This document shows, one piece after another, positions 27,598-40,721 of a stretch of 44,298 bases of DNA. The DNA lies in the NCBI GenBank assembly GCA_000998275.1, contig LCDA01000005.1:1-44298 (forward strand). Direction: 5' to 3'. Position 1 is the stretch's first letter. Every line of letters starts with the position of its first letter. The notes under the pieces are model-generated. The model was not told where the DNA came from. It was given only the letters and a program-made list of their open reading frames with translations, and ran no database searches. The DNA is from Candidatus Collierbacteria bacterium GW2011_GWA2_42_17. Lineage in GTDB: Bacteria; Patescibacteriota; Microgenomatia; UBA1400; MFAQ01. Position numbers and translations under genes: made by a program.

Positions 27598-28227
27598 TCA
27601 TCTGCTTAAAATCTCATAGATTTTATCTCTTTTTCTAGATAAACAGACGACATCGCTATTATAATACAGCTTCCTGATTAAAACCAACGATTCCTTCTTA
27701 GCATATCTTAATTGGTACACAGAACTTGACTTCGTTTTGGTCAAACATCCATAGATGTTTATAGTAGATTTAAGCATCTTCCGTATCCATTTGATGTGAT
27801 TCTCGCTAGCCGAAACAAAACTCATATAAAACATTAAGCTTGATTTCCATCGAGAATCTTTATAGGCATATACAGAACCGTCGCCATCGAAATGTCCACG
27901 AAGAAAATCAAAAAAATACTTATTAGGAATAAATATCGATCCAATAGTTTTCGATTTATGAGAAGAAAGTCCAATACCCAACAGGAAACGATAAAGAGAT
28001 ACATCGCTAAATTGAACTCTATAACATTCATTTCCGGATCCTGATTTCTTTATCCCAATTTTACATTCACGATGCAGACAAAATAACAAATTTTTGATCT
28101 GCTCGATGTCAATGGAAGAAAAATCGATGTGTCTTCCGTCAATAGAAAGGCTCCCGTCAGTAACAATTAAACCAATAGCATATGCAAATTGTCGGCTCCA
28201 ACGCCTAGTATACTTTGATATCTTCAC
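27598..28227 (-). CDS. LAGLIDADG homing endonuclease-like protein
   Basis: Two LAGLIDADG-type motifs: YAIGLIVTDGSL and FLRGHFDGDGSV; GTG start. Confidence 0.8.
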   Translation of the reverse strand: MKISKYTRRWSRQFAYAIGLIVTDGSLSIDGRHIDFSSIDIEQIKNLLFCLHRECKIGIKKSGSGNECYRVQFSDVSLYRFLLGIGLSSHKSKTIGSIFIPNKYFFDFLRGHFDGDGSVYAYKDSRWKSSLMFYMSFVSASENHIKWIRKMLKSTINIYGCLTKTKSSSVYQLRYAKKESLVLIRKLYYNSDVVCLSRKRDKIYEILSR

Positions 28228-28891: not shown

Positions 28892-29329
28892 GTGAAAAAG
28901 TGCTCAAAATGTCACGTTGAGAAGGAACTATCGGAATACTATTTTCGACATAAGGGCAAAAGAGCAGGTGAGCATTACAATCATTGTAAGGAATGTTTAA
29001 GAATTAGAGGAAAAACATACTATCAAGAAAACCACGAGAGACAACTTCGGTTATCAGTAAATAGAAACCGAACTCGCAGAAAAGATCAAAGAGAGTTCGT
29101 AAGTGCTCTGAAAAATTTACCCTGTGCCGACTGTGGAAGAAAATATCCACCATATGTTATGGATTTTGACCATCGTGATAAAAACTACAAACATGGAAAT
29201 ATTGGCACACTAGTCAGTCAAGCATACTTTACCAAAGAGAGACTTCTCAAAGAAATACAAAAATGTGATCTTGTTTGCTCGAACTGTCATAGAATCAGGA
29301 CTTTCAGAAGAAATCATCCAAACGGTTGA
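28892..29329 (+). CDS. HNH endonuclease-like protein with N-terminal zinc ribbon
   Basis: CSKC..CKEC, CADCGRKY, MDFDHRD, CDLVCSNCHRIRT. Confidence 0.8.
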   Translation: MKKCSKCHVEKELSEYYFRHKGKRAGEHYNHCKECLRIRGKTYYQENHERQLRLSVNRNRTRRKDQREFVSALKNLPCADCGRKYPPYVMDFDHRDKNYKHGNIGTLVSQAYFTKERLLKEIQKCDLVCSNCHRIRTFRRNHPNG

Positions 29330-29363: not shown

Positions 29364-29477
<114 letters not shown>

Positions 29478-29631
29478 AATGGTGTATCACGGAACGACAC
29501 GCCATGAGCAGGAGCGAATGTGGGCGACGGCAGGCACTGCCTAGTACTTTAGCATTCGGATTCCCGCTACCCGCTCCTAACGAGAATAAATTGAAATTTC
29601 TTCAGATTTAGCCCTGAATTCAACAAATAGT

Positions 29632-29678: not shown

Positions 29679-29703
29679 TGCGGGTAACGAGAATCGAACC
29701 TAA
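29679..29703 (-). repeat. R0: tRNA 3'-end-like / TAGGTTCGA boundary repeat
   Basis: Minus-strand TAGGTTCGATTCTCGTTACCCGCAT; shares TAGGTTCGA and CGTTACC with R1 and R3. Confidence 0.5.
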
Positions 29704-30524
29704 AAAGAATCTAATAATAATTGAATCAGAGCATCCGCTTGGTATAAAAATGCTCTAGTTTTCTCGGTATCTAATTGGCCTGGTGTATGTGCCTTACTCA
29801 ATAAAGCATAAATGTCATTTAGTGCCTGTTCTTGGGCAAGAAAAGCGGCTTGTGCAGATGGTTTGATTATTGATTTCAAGTAATTTATCTTATGTCTACC
29901 TGTTATTTTGTCTCCAGGAACTAACGAATGATACTTTCTAACTTTGATCTCTGGAGCAAAAAAATCAAGCAATCTGCGTTCGACTTCCCTCATTAGGAAC
30001 ATCGGTGAGCGGGTAGGGTCTTGAGTGGCCTGGTGCAATGTTTGCCAAGCGTTATCATATTCTTGGCCTAATGACTGATCAATTGTATGAAGTCTCTGCG
30101 AGATCGCAGATCGTTGACTGTACCTCTCTTCAATTAGATTTACTTGAACAAGGGCTTGTGAACGATATCCTGGTGGGTATGAGAGCGAGGCTCCAGAAGC
30201 AGCGACAGAATTTATTGTTAGGGTAGTTGTCCCCAAAGCTTGTAGCTGATTTGCCCAACTTGGATTCGAGACGTGCGTCTTTAAATCTTGTGATAATTGT
30301 TGAAGTATGTAAGTTAATGCAACACCAGAGGCTGTGATTGGTTGAGGAGGTGTGACATTCTGTCCTTTCATTTCTTCCCATAAGCCAATTGCCGATTCAA
30401 TTTGTCCTTCTTGTTTCCCTAGCTGAATTGTGTATTCGCTCAACTGTTTTTTTGACTCAGAAGTTGCGTCCAACGATGATTCAAGGTTCTGAATTATTAC
30501 ATCAATATCATTTTTGTTACTCAT
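29700..30524 (-). CDS. Hypothetical protein, fourth gene of island operon
   Basis: 274-aa ORF; 4-bp ATGA overlap with the upstream gene; stop codon lies in R0. Confidence 0.75.
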   Translation of the reverse strand: MSNKNDIDVIIQNLESSLDATSESKKQLSEYTIQLGKQEGQIESAIGLWEEMKGQNVTPPQPITASGVALTYILQQLSQDLKTHVSNPSWANQLQALGTTTLTINSVAASGASLSYPPGYRSQALVQVNLIEERYSQRSAISQRLHTIDQSLGQEYDNAWQTLHQATQDPTRSPMFLMREVERRLLDFFAPEIKVRKYHSLVPGDKITGRHKINYLKSIIKPSAQAAFLAQEQALNDIYALLSKAHTPGQLDTEKTRAFLYQADALIQLLLDSF

Positions 30525-31510
30525 TTGTCTCCATTCAGTTTAAGAAAATTAATAAATATTCTACCGAAACCTGTATTAATAAATCCTCCGGGAGCATCGA
30601 ATTGGTCAGGTCGTTTTCCTTTATACAACTCATCCGCAGTCGGAGCTTCAGTAATAGTGGGAGCACTAATTTTCATGGGTTGAATAAGTGATTCTGACTG
30701 TAGTCGCTGCAGAGATCGATCAATAACAGCTTCGTCCATATTGCGGTCTTTAAGTAAGGTACAAATAGAATCTCTGGTTACACCCTTAGCACCATTTCCT
30801 CCATTTTGGGGTAAATTTGAAAGAAAATGCTTGTCCATAGTTTTAAGCACCAAAAGATCTACGCTGTCCAGGCTTAGGAGTGTAGATAGTACAAGATCTT
30901 TAGTTTTGGGATGAAGATCCATGTTTTCTAATGCGCTAGCAACAAATTCAGCTATTACTTCATCAAAGCCTCTGCCGGGATTTGTTAATAATTTCCGAGT
31001 TATTTCTTCAAGTTGAAACACAATTGTGTTTTCAAAATAATCGACCGCTTCTTGCTTTATCTCAACTGAAGACAAACGTCTATTCAAATAGCCCAGAAAA
31101 GAATCAATCTCTTGTTGTCTTTTCTTATTAACCTTTTGATCATAATAATCTTTTATGGTCCCCGCACCTACGGCATATCCAGGAACGACGACTGAGGCAA
31201 GGTTGTGAAGTAATAAACCCACCACACTTACAAACTCCTTTTTATTATTTATTGTGACATTCTCAGCTAACTCTCCAGCCGATTTTTTTAGCTGACTAAT
31301 CCCCTGAGTTACCAATGCTTTATCATCTCCGTTCATATTTTGATACCTATTTGCAAGCGATCTCTGTGGCCATGATGGATCACAAACTAGTATTGTGCCA
31401 TCACTTTTCCTCGCTTCTTGTTCTTTTTGTTTCTCTTGTTCGGGCAAGAGTATCTGCTTTTTTAAACCTTTCTGTCTGCATAGCTTCCTCTTTGATTTCT
31501 TGATTTTCAC
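30521..31510 (-). CDS. Hypothetical protein, third gene of island operon
   Basis: 329-aa ORF (GTG at 31510; ATG at 31336 is an alternative start). Confidence 0.7.
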   Translation of the reverse strand: MKIKKSKRKLCRQKGLKKQILLPEQEKQKEQEARKSDGTILVCDPSWPQRSLANRYQNMNGDDKALVTQGISQLKKSAGELAENVTINNKKEFVSVVGLLLHNLASVVVPGYAVGAGTIKDYYDQKVNKKRQQEIDSFLGYLNRRLSSVEIKQEAVDYFENTIVFQLEEITRKLLTNPGRGFDEVIAEFVASALENMDLHPKTKDLVLSTLLSLDSVDLLVLKTMDKHFLSNLPQNGGNGAKGVTRDSICTLLKDRNMDEAVIDRSLQRLQSESLIQPMKISAPTITEAPTADELYKGKRPDQFDAPGGFINTGFGRIFINFLKLNGDK

Positions 31511-32195
31511 TCATTAGCCCTGAATGCTTTTCAGCAAAGTTGGAAATGACTTTGACGCCTTTGTAACTTTGGCTTACTTCATACCATAAACCCATTATTG
31601 CAAGGGTTGTGTTAGCCAACCGCCAAAGAGCTGTCTTTTCCATGTAGTCATCCTGAAAGTCGAAGTATGATACCTGAATCTGAGCTCCTTCTTTAGAAGG
31701 GAGAAACCTATATCCTCTGGTAGAGTCAACTAAGTTTGAATGACTTGAAACCTGCACGGGTTTCTTTATTTTCAATATAGCATTGGAAGTAGTAGGGTAA
31801 TTTTTACTTAACCATTTATATCTTTTGCTCTTGAGTTTGTCTGTGGAGTCCATAATCCCAAACTCGTCTGTTTTTGCGAACTTCTCTACATCAGGGAATG
31901 CAATAGAATAAGCGGCATCTGTCCCAGATTCAATTAATTGTCTTAAATTGAGAGATGACTGTACATGATGTTGGCGTATTATTGAAAACAAGGTAAGCAG
32001 ATAGAAGTTTCGAGCGGAATAATAGAATCTTAAAAAGATATCCTGTGGAGCATTAAATTCAGTAATAAAGCTTTCAAGAAGTTGAAAAGTCTTCAAGTTA
32101 TGAGCAAAGTTGTTTCCATATTTATTGAGAGCGTTTAAAGTTTTAGTATGTTCACCTTCTATGATTTCGGACAGGGTTCCAGTGTGTTTTTTCAT
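31401..32195 (-). CDS. Hypothetical protein, second gene of island operon (helix-rich)
   Basis: 264-aa ORF; ATGA overlap with the upstream gene. Confidence 0.75.
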   Translation of the reverse strand: MKKHTGTLSEIIEGEHTKTLNALNKYGNNFAHNLKTFQLLESFITEFNAPQDIFLRFYYSARNFYLLTLFSIIRQHHVQSSLNLRQLIESGTDAAYSIAFPDVEKFAKTDEFGIMDSTDKLKSKRYKWLSKNYPTTSNAILKIKKPVQVSSHSNLVDSTRGYRFLPSKEGAQIQVSYFDFQDDYMEKTALWRLANTTLAIMGLWYEVSQSYKGVKVISNFAEKHSGLMSENQEIKEEAMQTERFKKADTLARTRETKRTRSEEK

Positions 32196-33061
32196 TTTAT
32201 TTTTTTAATTTCGACCAAAAACTCTGCATATTCTTCATAACCATCGAGAAATTCATACAATTGTTCTTGATTTAATAGGCGTGTATTGACCTGTGGCTTA
32301 TTCACTAATGGAACTACAGTTGTAACCTCATATACTGCATCCATGTATTCATTCAATTCTTTTTTATTTATTCTTTTTTTGGAAGCTGGGGCTATAAATT
32401 TTTGGAAAAGAATATAGTCTAATTCATCAAGGATCTCAGAACCGATATTAAGAATCTTATCGATATTTGTTTCTGTGGGAATATCTTCTCCGTGAACGAC
32501 CCGGTTAAGAATAGAGGTTACATCCAAAATTAAACGCCTCAACTTATTGCTAATAACACCGGTTCCAGCCAAAACCTGAGTCATCATTTTTATACCTGAA
32601 GGGACAGTTTCTTTAAACGTATACAGTCTTTTTAGTTTTTTCTCAATTTCGATACGTAATTTTGCAAGTGCCAAAACGGGATCCTTTGCTGCTAATTCTT
32701 CCAATTCCTCAATAACTGAATTTTTCTTAATTACTTGTTCTTTATCTCCACCTTCCGATTTAATTTCTTTGGCTTGTTGTTCAGCCTTTTTTATATCTTG
32801 ATTGATTTCAGCTTCAAAATCTCCGAACTTGATTTTCTTTATATGAGAAGCAAAGGGCGTCAGTAGAACCAGGAGCATCAAGAGTATGGTTGTGTTATCT
32901 ATCTGAACAAAAGAAGCTCGAAATAAATGCAAAAGTAAAATAATTACATTAAAACAAAAAATTATAACAATAATTTTGCCGCTCTTAAAAAACTTATTAA
33001 GCCATTCTTTTATCATATTCATATCCCCCCGAAGGGCGATCCCGTAGCTAAGATGAATCAC
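32192..33061 (-). CDS. Membrane-anchored protein with a possible DUF4145/HEPN-like helical domain, first gene of island operon
   Basis: Two N-terminal TM helices then a charged coiled region and 'LRRLILDVTSILNRVVHGEDI'; an internal start near GGGGGGAT-ATGAATATG is plausible. Confidence 0.7.
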   Translation of the reverse strand: MIHLSYGIALRGDMNMIKEWLNKFFKSGKIIVIIFCFNVIILLLHLFRASFVQIDNTTILLMLLVLLTPFASHIKKIKFGDFEAEINQDIKKAEQQAKEIKSEGGDKEQVIKKNSVIEELEELAAKDPVLALAKLRIEIEKKLKRLYTFKETVPSGIKMMTQVLAGTGVISNKLRRLILDVTSILNRVVHGEDIPTETNIDKILNIGSEILDELDYILFQKFIAPASKKRINKKELNEYMDAVYEVTTVVPLVNKPQVNTRLLNQEQLYEFLDGYEEYAEFLVEIKKIK

Positions 33062-33073
33062 AAAAGTGTCATC

Positions 33074-33118
33074 AGTTCCCTAAAAGTAAGGTACCTTCAC
33101 CACAGGGATCATTCGGTA
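33074..33118. repeat. P1: 45-bp repeat, copy 1
   Basis: AGTTCCCTAAAAGTAAGGTACCTTCACCACAGGGATCATTCGGTA; 43/45 identical to 34754-34798. Confidence 0.9.
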
Positions 33119-33257
33119 AGCAGAGTATAGCTCATATGTATTACTTTTTCCTTCTTTTAACGGGTCTTTTGATATATGGATCTTTGAAACTTAAAAGACC
33201 CATGTGGCGCTTTAATTCCTTGAGTTGTACAATCAGTCTAGGAGTTAAAAGATCGTA

Positions 33258-33346
33258 TAGGTTCGAGCACATTATCGTTACCAGCTCCAAATGCACAGAA
33301 ATCACCATAAACATACATAAAGTTACTTGAAATTACACAAAATAAC
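33258..33346 (+). repeat. R1: cassette-boundary repeat, copy 1
   Basis: TAGGTTCGAGC..CGTTACCAGCTCCAAATGC..ACAGAA..ACATACATAAAGTTACT.. Confidence 0.8.
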
Positions 33347-33904
33347 ATGGATGACGAAAATAGAGTTGGTATAATCTTGGTCGCTACTCCTACTCAAAAG
33401 GAAGCAGATGAAATTTCCAAATTGCAAAAGCAATGCTTTGTAGATGTTGATGGTGAAGAGGCGAATGAAGATTTTTATCATAAGCCAGCGATTCAGGTAC
33501 TTGCTTATACTGATGACTCTTTAGTTGGTTGGGCTGGTGTTCATATTGCCGAGCAAAACTACAAGGGGCGACAGATAAAACTCGGCGGGTATGGTATTTG
33601 CACTCGCCCAGATTTTAGGCATATGGGTATAGCCACCAAAGTTGCTGGAGAAGCAATGAAATACTTAAAAGAGAAGGGCTGTGACATTGGCTTTTTATCG
33701 GTTAATCCTAACGATGAAAAATCAATAAAATTACATCAAAAATATGGATTTGTAATGCTACCCCAACATTTTTCATGGAAAAACAATAAAGACCGAATCA
33801 AGGAAGATACTGGTGGTATGGTTGCTTCAATTGAATCTAATGAATTATTTAACTACGTGTTAAACGGCCAGGAAACTCTTTACGTTGGCAACGGGTATTG
33901 GTAA
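33347..33904 (+). CDS. GNAT family N-acetyltransferase
   Basis: LGGYGICTRPDFRHMGIATKVAGEAM..FLSVNPNDEKSIKLHQKYGF. Confidence 0.85.
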   Translation: MDDENRVGIILVATPTQKEADEISKLQKQCFVDVDGEEANEDFYHKPAIQVLAYTDDSLVGWAGVHIAEQNYKGRQIKLGGYGICTRPDFRHMGIATKVAGEAMKYLKEKGCDIGFLSVNPNDEKSIKLHQKYGFVMLPQHFSWKNNKDRIKEDTGGMVASIESNELFNYVLNGQETLYVGNGYW

Positions 33905-34065
33905 TGACTAAATTCGGAAAAGTCTTGATTCCAAATAAATCTTTCAAAATGTTTAGGTGTAGAATTAGACCAGCTGTAACGTAATAGCGAAGGCCGATTT
34001 TACTTTAGAAATAAGTGCTAAATCGGAGACGGTAGATACTTTTTGATATACTCTTCCTGGCTAAG

Positions 34066-34152
34066 TAGGTTCGAGCCAATTATGGTATCTCGCTCCAGAT
34101 GCGACAGAAGTCACTACAAACGTACATAAAGTTACTAGAAAATTACAATAAG
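34066..34152 (+). repeat. R2: cassette-boundary repeat, copy 2
   Basis: TAGGTTCGAGCC..CGCTCCAGATGCGACAGAAG..ACGTACATAAAGTTACTAGAAAATTACA. Confidence 0.8.
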
Positions 34153-34704
34153 TCATATTTTCCCTTGTTCCAGGCTTTTCTTCCAAAGAATATCTTTTTC
34201 TTCACAATCGTAATCAATAAAGGCAACCGTTTCTAGATTGAATTTATTGGGGAAAGTATTTTGAATAAGTTCTAAAGCAATGGGTATTTTTTCAAGTTTC
34301 ACCTCTCGAGCAATTTTCATATGATCACCTATTGTTTTTCCATACAGTCCTTCGTAGTTGGAGTTGGCTTTGATGGAAAGTCCTTTAAAAACTAGCTTGA
34401 AATTTTCTACTAATTGGTTTAAGGCAGAAGGGTCAAACATTGCAACTATCTTTTGGTCCCAGTTTACAATTTCTTTAACATTAATCTGGAAACTTTTTGG
34501 TAAGTCCATCTTTTTAAGGCTATTTATTACTGCCTCTATCTTTTCCTTCGTTAGTTCTTCTTCAATATAGGTTAACGTTATATGCGGAAGAACTTTTGCT
34601 CTTGAATCAACAATTCCAAATTGTTTCTCTACCAACTCTTTTCTGATCTTGTAGATTAGGTCGATTGTATCTTTGTCTGGGGTGATTACTAAAAAAGGAT
34701 TCAT
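34153..34704 (-). CDS. 2'-5' RNA ligase / 2H phosphoesterase-like protein
   Basis: PHITLTYIEEE and a second H-containing segment GDHMKIAREV; start MNPFLVI chosen (ORF extends to 34752). Confidence 0.6.
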   Translation of the reverse strand: MNPFLVITPDKDTIDLIYKIRKELVEKQFGIVDSRAKVLPHITLTYIEEELTKEKIEAVINSLKKMDLPKSFQINVKEIVNWDQKIVAMFDPSALNQLVENFKLVFKGLSIKANSNYEGLYGKTIGDHMKIAREVKLEKIPIALELIQNTFPNKFNLETVAFIDYDCEEKDILWKKSLEQGKI

Positions 34705-34753
34705 ATTTATTCGTTCGGTCCCTGCGGTTAAGAGGATCACAATTTGTGCCATT

Positions 34754-34798
34754 AGTTCCCTAAAAGTAAGGTACCTTCACCGCAGAGATCATTCGGTA
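34754..34798. repeat. P2: 45-bp repeat, copy 2
   Basis: AGTTCCCTAAAAGTAAGGTACCTTCACCGCAGAGATCATTCGGTA. Confidence 0.9.
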
Positions 34799-34920
34799 CT
34801 AGTAGTATATCAAGAACGTCGGAAACTCTTAATGCCCATTCTATCTTTGAGTAAATTGAGTTTTAGAACTAATTCAGGTGTAATATAGTCACAGAGTTTA
34901 GAAAACAACCAAAGTGGGAA

Positions 34921-35010
34921 TAGGTTCGAGCTGAGTACCGTTACCAGCTCATAAAGTAACAGAAATAAACATAAATGTGCAGAAGGTTACTAGAAAAGTA
35001 CACAAATGGC
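34921..35010 (+). repeat. R3: cassette-boundary repeat, copy 3
   Basis: TAGGTTCGAGCTGAGTACCGTTACCAGCTCATAAAGTAACAGAAATAAACATAAATGTGCAGAAGGTTACTAGAAAAGTACACAAA. Confidence 0.8.
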
Positions 35011-35015
35011 TAGTA

Positions 35016-35414
35016 ATGATTAATAAAGAACAATTTCAAGAAGCTGTTGTCAAATCTGGGAAAAAGGAGACTTCTATGTCTCCAGATCACTGGAACGAGG
35101 AAAATCCTACACTAGGCCATTGTGCGGTGGTTGCCTTAACAGCACAGGATATTTATGGAGGCAAACTGTTGAAAGCATCTCTTGAGGGGACAGGGTTTGC
35201 TTATGGCAGATCGCATTACTGGAATTTGCTTCCGGATGGATCAGAAATTGATTTTACAGAAGCACAATTCGAAGGAAGAAAGCCTCAGTTAAATGGTGAA
35301 GTGAGAACTCGTGAATACGTACTTAGCAACGAACTTACCAAACAAAGATATGAACTACTTAAAGTTATTATTTTGATTGAACTTAGCAAAGTTCTTGACG
35401 CCTGTTCGAGCTGA
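35016..35414 (+). CDS. YunG-like protein
   Basis: 'NPTLGHCAVVALTAQDIYGGKLLKA..SHYWNLLPDGSEIDFTEAQF'; stop codon lies within R4. Confidence 0.65.
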   Translation: MINKEQFQEAVVKSGKKETSMSPDHWNEENPTLGHCAVVALTAQDIYGGKLLKASLEGTGFAYGRSHYWNLLPDGSEIDFTEAQFEGRKPQLNGEVRTREYVLSNELTKQRYELLKVIILIELSKVLDACSS

Positions 35415-35431
35415 GCACCGTCACCCGTTCA
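35403..35431 (+). repeat. R4: partial cassette-boundary repeat, copy 4
   Basis: TGTTCGAGCTGAGCACCGTCACCCGTTCA aligns with the first 30 nt of R3. Confidence 0.6.
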
Positions 35432-35470
35432 TTTTAATAAAGAATTATCTTTTGGGTATAATATATCTAC

Positions 35471-36316
35471 GTGAACAGTGAACACCAACCACACCTTGAA
35501 TTTGAAAAAAAATTAGTCTCAGAGTATTTCAGGCTAGGTTCTATCAATAAAGTCTTTCAGCAGCACAAATACAGTCTTCCTATTTCTTTTGCCGGTTTTG
35601 ACCGTGTTCTGAATAAGTATGGTGTTGTCAAATCCGCTGGTCCAAACTCAAAGCTTTCCGAATCACTTTTCATCCTCAGTCTCCTGGCAAACTACAAAAT
35701 TCCTCTCGAAAAGGTCTATCATCAGTTTGCCCCGAAATCGATTCAAGTCTCCACTAACACCCTCCATCGTATTCTTCACTACACTCGTTTGGGGCTGACT
35801 CGCAGACAGGGAGTTGCTCTAATTATCTCGCCAAAAGGTAAATCACACCAGGTTTTGGTTGGCAAAGATCTGAGCTTAACTAAATCATCACTGGGCAATA
35901 GGGGAGATCTCTCCTTACCCATGGGTCACTCTAAAATTGGAGAACCCATCAAAGACAGCATTGCCCGCATTCTTCAAAACGAAGTCTTTACCGATAATGT
36001 CATAAGTAAAACTTTTCCCTGGGAAGTCATTCCGGAGCATATCAAACCGGTAATGTACATCAACATTACCGATATCCAAGTTTCAGTTTACAAACTGGAG
36101 TTACCACAAAATCTAAATAAATTTTCCAGTTTCAAGCTTGAAAAACTAAAATATATCAACCTAGACAACCTACCAAAATCAAGCTTCCGTCCGGGAGTTA
36201 AAGATATTCTTGATCATTACTCAAATCTATATACCAGCAACTATTCCGAAACACTCATTCATAACTCGGAACTAAACACTAAGATTTATGCTCTTGCCAA
36301 GGAGCCTGTAAAGTAA
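35471..36316 (+). CDS. HTH-like N-terminus plus NUDIX-like C-terminus, function unknown
   Basis: 'LSLPMGHSKIGEPIKDSIARILQNEV' resembles a degenerate NUDIX box; GTG start. Confidence 0.55.
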   Translation: MNSEHQPHLEFEKKLVSEYFRLGSINKVFQQHKYSLPISFAGFDRVLNKYGVVKSAGPNSKLSESLFILSLLANYKIPLEKVYHQFAPKSIQVSTNTLHRILHYTRLGLTRRQGVALIISPKGKSHQVLVGKDLSLTKSSLGNRGDLSLPMGHSKIGEPIKDSIARILQNEVFTDNVISKTFPWEVIPEHIKPVMYINITDIQVSVYKLELPQNLNKFSSFKLEKLKYINLDNLPKSSFRPGVKDILDHYSNLYTSNYSETLIHNSELNTKIYALAKEPVK

Positions 36317-40046: not shown

Positions 40047-40721
40047 TTATGATTGGCTAGCCACAGCATTAACCCATCCCAATATTCTTCTATGAAGGGA
40101 TACGCCAAATTTTGGATTACCCTTAGCTAAAACTCGTAACTGTACCGTGCCATGAGGTAATTTATGCTTACTATGCTTACCTGTCCTGTTATCGATTTGT
40201 GTCTTACCAAATTGGTTTTTGGGAATACCAGTAACATCAGACCAATAAGACAAATCGTCGTCGATAACATTATCGGGATAAGAGTGTAATGCCAAGGACA
40301 GATTATTGATACTTAAACCAATTACTTCCATAAACCATTTAATCGCAATCTTAATCACTCTTGGATCAGAATTAGTAACTCTTACAGACTCAATATTTTT
40401 TGTCCCTTCACCTAGATATAGACCTATTCCAAATAGCCATAAGTCTCTTGAAGACAATATTCCAATTTCATTAATAGCCGAAGACTGAATCTCCGCTGTA
40501 ACATTCAATCTTTTTTTATGCCTATTATTTGCAGAAAGTGCAGTCCCGTTCTTAATACGTTCTAAACTTGATAAATTTGGTGTATAAGGAATTAATTTCA
40601 ACCAATCACTAAGTGTACTCTTGGGTAATATAAGCTCCTTCTGAATAAATGAATACGAATAACCCTCTTTTCTAAGCCATATAGCACGAGCCTTAAGAAT
40701 TTGTCGTTTTTGAACAGTCAT
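40047..40721 (-). CDS. HTH + LAGLIDADG-like endonuclease
   Basis: N-terminal HTH 'RKEGYSYSFIQKELILPKSTLSDWLK', 'LWLFGIGLYLGEGTKN' LAGLIDADG-like motif. Confidence 0.6.
   Translation of the reverse strand: MTVQKRQILKARAIWLRKEGYSYSFIQKELILPKSTLSDWLKLIPYTPNLSSLERIKNGTALSANNRHKKRLNVTAEIQSSAINEIGILSSRDLWLFGIGLYLGEGTKNIESVRVTNSDPRVIKIAIKWFMEVIGLSINNLSLALHSYPDNVIDDDLSYWSDVTGIPKNQFGKTQIDNRTGKHSKHKLPHGTVQLRVLAKGNPKFGVSLHRRILGWVNAVASQS

Follow-up and report, generated by a model that had tools for sequence, protein, structure and literature searches.

Gene units stacked at a tRNA-Gly gene of a Collierbacterium and their relation to large serine recombinase phages

The 44,298 bp of Candidatus Collierbacteria bacterium DNA analysed here (below, the window) contains an array of small gene units that follows a tRNA-Gly(gcc) gene and is punctuated by a repeat, R, and several described systems resemble parts of it. 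Temperate phages of the phiC31, A118 and TP901-1 type have a large serine recombinase (LSR) with PF00239 and PF13408 domains and prophage ends, attL and attR, that share a very short core, as do the phages described below; here, however, the tRNA-Gly 3' end serves as attB, the LSR gene has attP within its own 3' end, so that on integration the protein acquires a different C-terminus, and a family of integrase-less cassettes has the same ends. SSV1-type suicidal archaeal integrases are alike in that the site lies within the integrase gene, the target is a tRNA gene and integration alters the integrase gene. According to a 2021 review, integrases of the suicidal kind, which disrupt their own gene, are tyrosine recombinases that become split and occur in archaea alone (PMC8371274), whereas here the enzyme is a serine recombinase of bacterial phages and is not split, its catalytic domain remaining whole while C-terminal residues are swapped. 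Integrons and clusters of attC sites lacking integron integrases (CALIN) share with the array its head-to-tail, mostly co-oriented single-gene cassettes, its short recombination sites and, in the latter case, the lack of an integrase, but here there is no IntI and no attC structure (the boxes GTTRRRY and RYYYAAC are unmatched), the target is a tRNA gene and the integrase is a phage serine integrase. Phage satellites, such as those like the phage-inducible chromosomal islands, and tycheposons are small non-autonomous or cargo elements that sit at tRNA genes and depend on others; the units described here differ from them in having one or a few genes and no integrase of their own and in being stacked in arrays.

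Lysogeny that depends on tRNA genes uses tyrosine integrases (PMC10865867), and a report on prophages and genomic islands of Patescibacteria makes no mention in its main text of tRNA, integrases or cassettes (PMC12455944). We found no description of the cassettes, of R or of the RNA called X below in the literature. Elements with phage integrases at tRNA genes were already known; what is new here is the integron-like cassette mode and the C-terminal swap of a serine integrase.

The array and its anchor at tRNA-Gly

We consider it probable that the locus consists of non-autonomous units stacked in an array at the 3' end of tRNA-Gly(gcc), which carry the ends of tRNA-Gly-targeting LSR phages of Microgenomates and would be moved by an LSR acting in trans. 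A preliminary description of this DNA had reported an ~87 bp repeat at 33258, 34066 and 34921 with a shorter copy near 35403, and these copies are real, the last being degenerate and placed here at 35404. The window has five matches to the motif TAGGTTCGA where 0.39 are expected (five were reached in 0 of 100 shuffles), one of which (36399) is the T-arm of a tRNA-Gln; a search of the rest of the 731-kb source genome gave no further copy of R. When models of the R halves and of the left ends of units were built without window sequences and then run on the window, both the right half (~29 bp) and the left half (~50 bp) of its R copies were recovered, so each R copy is a junction between the right end of one unit and the left end of the next. 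The junction falls at GCTC, a sequence that tRNA-Gly, R and the left ends all share. An inverted copy at 29703-29679 (R0) had been taken for the left boundary of the block; it is instead an inverted fragment of the tRNA-Gly 3' end, and the left anchor is tRNA-Gly(gcc) itself. That R is a mere tRNA mimic was rejected, since R1 aligns to tRNA-Gly only with gaps. The genes of the block lie where the preliminary description had put them; the tRNA-Gly anchor, the second repeat X and a conserved minus-strand peptide beside R had been missed. The features of the locus are:

29364-29440, +: tRNA-Gly(gcc), integration target (attB) and left anchor
29555-29577, +: fragment of the tRNA-Gly 3' end (local alignment), perhaps the footprint of an earlier insertion
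29680-29699, -: inverted tRNA-Gly 3'-end fragment (the former R0), 18/20 identical to tRNA-Gly(gcc)
29700-33061, -: unit 1 cargo, four overlapping open reading frames (ORFs) of 274, 329, 264 and 289 aa, the first with a weak pP_pnuc_1 match under the cut-off
33026-33135, -: X RNA copy 1 with extended -10 promoter
33162-33287, -: unit 1 peptide tail, remnant of an LSR C-terminus (E=9.3e-10)
33258-33287, +: R1, unit 1 right end (attR; E=7.8e-11)
33284-33341, +: unit 2 type-1 left end (E=5.4e-7)
33347-33904, +: GNAT acetyltransferase, unit 2 cargo (PF00583, E=8.8e-15)
33903-34095, -: unit 2 peptide tail, disrupted (two pieces, E=1.6e-8 and 1.8e-6)
34066-34095, +: R2, unit 2 right end (E=1.9e-13)
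34092-34155, +: unit 3 type-1 left end (E=2e-12)
34153-34752, -: 2H/LigT-like phosphoesterase, unit 3 cargo (PF02834, E=6.8e-5)
34705-34815, -: X RNA copy 2 (107 bits)
34810-34950, -: unit 3 peptide tail (E=7.1e-17)
34921-34950, +: R3, unit 3 right end (E=8.6e-15)
34947-35007, +: unit 4 type-1 left end (E=6.5e-9)
34977-35414, +: YunG-family protein, unit 4 cargo, start codon likely further in (PF24585, E=1.4e-25)
35402-35433, +: R4, degenerate outermost right end (E=0.0055)
35471-36316, +: host gene after the insertion, directly after tRNA-Gly(gcc) in G015

The host gene after R4 was traced through genomes of the order. In G015, a genome of the same genus, tRNA-Gly(gcc) is followed at most 86 nt on by the gene that follows R4 in the window; the ~6 kb between the tRNA and this gene is thus an insertion, and G015 has the empty site. 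G001, from another genus, has R at the same place with different cargo upstream. Comparison of orthologous loci, which the preliminary description had proposed, therefore found both different cargo between sites and an empty site, and R is no ordinary dispersed repeat, as it is tied to tRNA-Gly and to unit borders. Of the modular mobile locus that had been envisaged, the modularity and the turnover of cargo stand and the boundary at R0 falls, while its mobility would be in trans; the recombination chemistry, then called unknown, can be replaced by that of LSR elements, whose ends these are.

The R pattern is present in 53/374 genomes of the class, and a reversed-pattern control gave 0 matches. 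In a genome collection of 85,462 species the exact degenerate pattern has 49 matching stretches, all 49 with titles that name Patescibacteria (the candidate phyla radiation, CPR) or an uncultured-bacterium metagenome-assembled genome (MAG); the lineages named are those of Microgenomates (Woese-, Davies-, Gottesman-, Ames-, Roizman-, Levy-, Shapiro-, Collierbacteria and others), and the titles outside these lineages are one WWE3, one labelled Paceibacterota and some MAGs. Loci of 6-20 kb around R sites were extracted. Of the R runs, 46 have a tRNA on the same strand no more than 9 kb away; the nearest one upstream is tRNA-Gly in 45 (11 gcc, 16 ccc and 18 tcc) and tRNA-Thr in the exception, at distances from tRNA to R of 56 nt to 7.6 kb. 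R blocks lie less than 1 kb from contig ends more often than expected (12/57 versus 4.3, p=0.0016), which fits variable or repeated sequence.

Prophages with the same ends

Searches with the X RNA pointed to LSR genes pressed against tRNA-Gly. In the Gottesmanbacteria genome G287 a prophage of ~38 kb lies on one contig (G287:C4, ~197-235 kb; loci L315, L316 and L317), with the order, along one strand, tRNA-Gly(ccc), LSR, terminase, portal-like protein, major head protein, endolysin, R and host tRNA-Thr. Its LSR gene (L315:2496-4148; PF00239 (Resolvase) and PF13408 (zinc-ribbon), phrog_95 E=9.7e-62) reads toward the tRNA-Gly that it abuts. Joining attR and attL of this prophage at GCTC gives a single LSR frame of 557 aa that ends in SDMELVTVIGSDLFSLVNYITPDLQLQFSALKEHMGIDSFALPQ and a stop codon, and the same join in G031 and G190 gives frames of 565 and 582 aa, so that the frame is open in 3/3 prophages. 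Because the joined frame runs from the LSR through the core into the peptide tail found beside R, attP lies inside the LSR gene and R is attR; the tail is the C-terminus of the LSR in the circular phage. In the integrated state the LSR ends instead in a peptide read from the antisense strand of the tRNA (..MERAKGIEPSS..), a swap of ~35-75 residues that leaves the catalytic part whole. G287, G410 and G066 have right-end prophage genes beside R in common (66-93% identity). Between tRNA-Gly(ccc) and tRNA-Thr(cgt) lies one syntenic host interval whose cassettes vary from genome to genome (L104, L106, L119, L138, L185) and which in G287:C4 is occupied by a whole prophage.

The tail is encoded on the minus strand to the left of R in short and long forms with the pattern [ELVTV]xxSNLF..ITPELILQLxxLKxHLxIxSF followed by a stop codon. 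Of the single-base differences in its codons, 53% are synonymous versus 21% by chance, and differences by codon position are 0.35/0.26/0.50; the synonymous excess indicates that the tail is coding and under purifying selection. Of 277 genomes 52 contain it, for the most part at R sites that had been found before, and in none of the 277 did it turn up at the end of a long gene. A free-standing protein was rejected, as the tail has no consistent start codon, no Pfam match and no relative in viral_contigs (an AlphaFold model of the peptide is of low confidence, pLDDT 66), and a cargo tag was rejected once the attP join had shown the tail to be the LSR C-terminus.

One class of left end points to the same phages. 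The profile of the type-2 left end of cassettes (below) matches LSR 3' ends at tRNA-Gly in prophages outside the model set (E=3.9e-9, 1.2e-6 and 1.1e-5), and by this homology the type-2 left end is a remnant of the LSR 3' end. Together with the identity of the tail, this ties the cassettes to the phage family. Related serine recombinases also abut the 3' ends of tRNA-Gln, tRNA-His and tRNA-Glu (L126 4703-6349 and L142 1654-3240 in oriented coordinates, and L266), so these LSRs may quite generally have a C-terminus that is read from antisense tRNA.

Units, cargo and competing explanations

Unit left ends start directly after the GCTC of the tRNA-Gly 3' end and are of type 1 (GCTC..AAGTGACAGAAATAAACA..TTACTAGAAA, conserved over ~50 nt), of type 2 (GCTCCATAYSGGA..CCCGAGTTCGAGCC) or, in some cases, of neither type; the three window junctions R1, R2 and R3 all have type-1 left ends. 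Most units measure 0.4-2.5 kb and contain one gene or a few. The type-1 units (n=21) have a median of 779 bp, 15/21 have a single gene, and in 18/21 the first gene is directed away from tRNA-Gly, that is, co-oriented with it (p=0.0015); type-2 units (n=22) have a median of 2.3 kb and no orientation bias. The 122 cargo proteins fall into 113 families, differ from site to site and include EcoRI-type restriction and modification, a 5-hydroxymethyldeoxyuridine (5-hmdU) DNA kinase, GNAT, NUDIX, glyoxalase and tRNA-synthetase-like proteins.

That the window block contains no integrase, as had been noted, holds in profile searches for both tyrosine and serine integrases. A 32-sequence profile found no tyrosine integrase in the R loci, and no serine recombinase lies inside the tRNA-Gly-to-R units, every match of the profile being outside them, either to a gene at a tRNA or to a fragment. 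An integron-like or Xer-type tyrosine recombinase, with R as an attC or dif-like site, is thus very improbable: the layout is cassette-like and every class-sample genome has a tyrosine recombinase, most often two, but neither GTTCGAG nor GTTACC(A/C) of R matches the attC box GTTRRRY, the R loci are without such an integrase, and the attL/attR reconstruction makes R the attR of serine-recombinase prophages. The attC/integron reading accordingly failed the sequence and integrase tests, and Xer-driven insertion was rejected as tyrosine recombinase numbers in R-bearing genomes resemble the class baseline; the window genome itself (G000) has only two Xer-like genes, and no intI adjoins the array.

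How could units without an integrase have come to be stacked? In the circular phage attP lies within the 3' part of the LSR gene, and integration at tRNA-Gly gives the LSR its antisense-tRNA C-terminus at attL and strands its true tail at attR. Cassettes retain the right half-site and the tail, their left end being either an LSR 3' remnant (type 2) or the ~50-nt sequence (type 1). Most likely the LSR recombines a circular element with tRNA-Gly, the crossover falling within GCTC; insertions that follow one another would stack and push older R copies outward, which would fit the decay of R4. Insertion, excision or exchange of cassettes would be the work of an LSR from a related phage, which must act in trans, if cassettes still move, since they have no integrase. 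The orientation of type-1 genes suggests that transcription reading through from the promoter of tRNA-Gly may drive their expression. A further step, integron-like gene capture by a phage serine integrase in trans, with tRNA-Gly as site and promoter, exchange of single-gene cassettes through LSR half-sites and the C-terminal swap as a direction switch, is a possibility that we put forward tentatively.

Several observations weigh against trans-mobilised units with phage ends. The G031 prophage is spread over two contigs, and in G190 the two prophage ends are separated by ~75 kb, the middle of which was read only in part. No similarity between type-1 left ends and LSR genes was detected, so recognition of these ends by an LSR is assumed, and unit 1 of the window has a left end that belongs to neither type. 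Neither circular cassettes nor products of excision were seen. LSR genes occur in 199/277 genomes of the class, with weak enrichment in those that bear R (42/52 versus 157/225 of the others), so that helpers may be transient; the genome from which the window comes carries one truncated serine recombinase, located at the end of a contig (G000:C1:73-333), a candidate helper or helper remnant.

The main rival, somewhat doubtful in our judgement, is that the units are decayed prophage remnants, each phage insertion at tRNA-Gly having lost by deletion almost all but its ends and one accessory gene or a few, and that they have accumulated serially as immobile relics. It accounts well for type-2 units, whose left ends are LSR 3' remnants by homology, and it agrees with tails that are frequently frameshifted or stopped, with the decayed R4, with LSR prophages at the same sites and with single-contig G021, which has an R unit and no PF07508 match, a genome that also counts against mobilisation in trans. 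Type-1 units fit it less well: they are compact, mostly single-gene and mostly in one orientation, and their left ends are closely conserved across many genera without LSR sequence, whereas random deletion would not repeatedly yield one precise left end. The varied cargo (restriction-modification, GNAT, NUDIX, glyoxalase) is not phage structural either. Homologous recombination between the R/left-end repeats and DNA imported by natural competence, with a site-specific step only in the founding phage insertion, could draw on the similarity over ~87 bp of R copies within an array, but the repeats are short, diverged and poor substrates, and units at many tRNA-Gly loci start exactly at the tRNA 3' end; we regard it as improbable.

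The X RNA, neighbouring genes and consequences

X, the second repeat, lies in the window at 33026-33135 and 34705-34815 on the minus strand. It is an RNA of ~85 nt with a three-way junction, preceded by an extended -10 (TGnTATAaT) and assigned by its U-G pairs to the strand opposite R. Two-sided changes are present in 11/22 pairs, and its 34 cells compare with 9.6 in shuffles, 34 being reached in 0 of 500. A known RNA was rejected, since X has no match in Rfam. X occurs in 40/277 Microgenomates genomes at unit borders, beside LSR genes and in elements at other tRNAs, and it is a new covarying structured RNA that marks some unit borders. In units on the minus strand, X immediately precedes the cargo gene, as whose leader it may serve.

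The host gene at 35471-36316 is conserved in the family and adjoins this tRNA cluster in most of its genomes; it has no Pfam match and looks by eye like a helix-turn-helix plus a NUDIX-like domain. In the same cluster, a LAGLIDADG-type protein (27598-28227, -) is flanked by two tRNA-Leu genes, and tRNA-Phe and tRNA-Gly flank a Cys-rich HNH-like protein without a clear Pfam match (28892-29329, +); both are possible free-standing homing endonucleases. Between tRNA-Gly(tcc) and tRNA-Pro there is a possible LAGLIDADG-like ORF (40047-40721, -), judged by eye only.

Through such arrays streamlined CPR bacteria would be able to acquire or exchange single genes, among them those for restriction-modification, acetyltransferases and NUDIX proteins, at a defined site; R, the left-end types and the X RNA are markers with which such loci can be found. 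The LSR adds a bacterial-phage serine integrase with attP in its own gene to a category, own-gene disruption, that had been called exclusively archaeal (PMC8371274). If the C-terminal swap does set the direction of recombination, it could serve in tools built on serine integrases.

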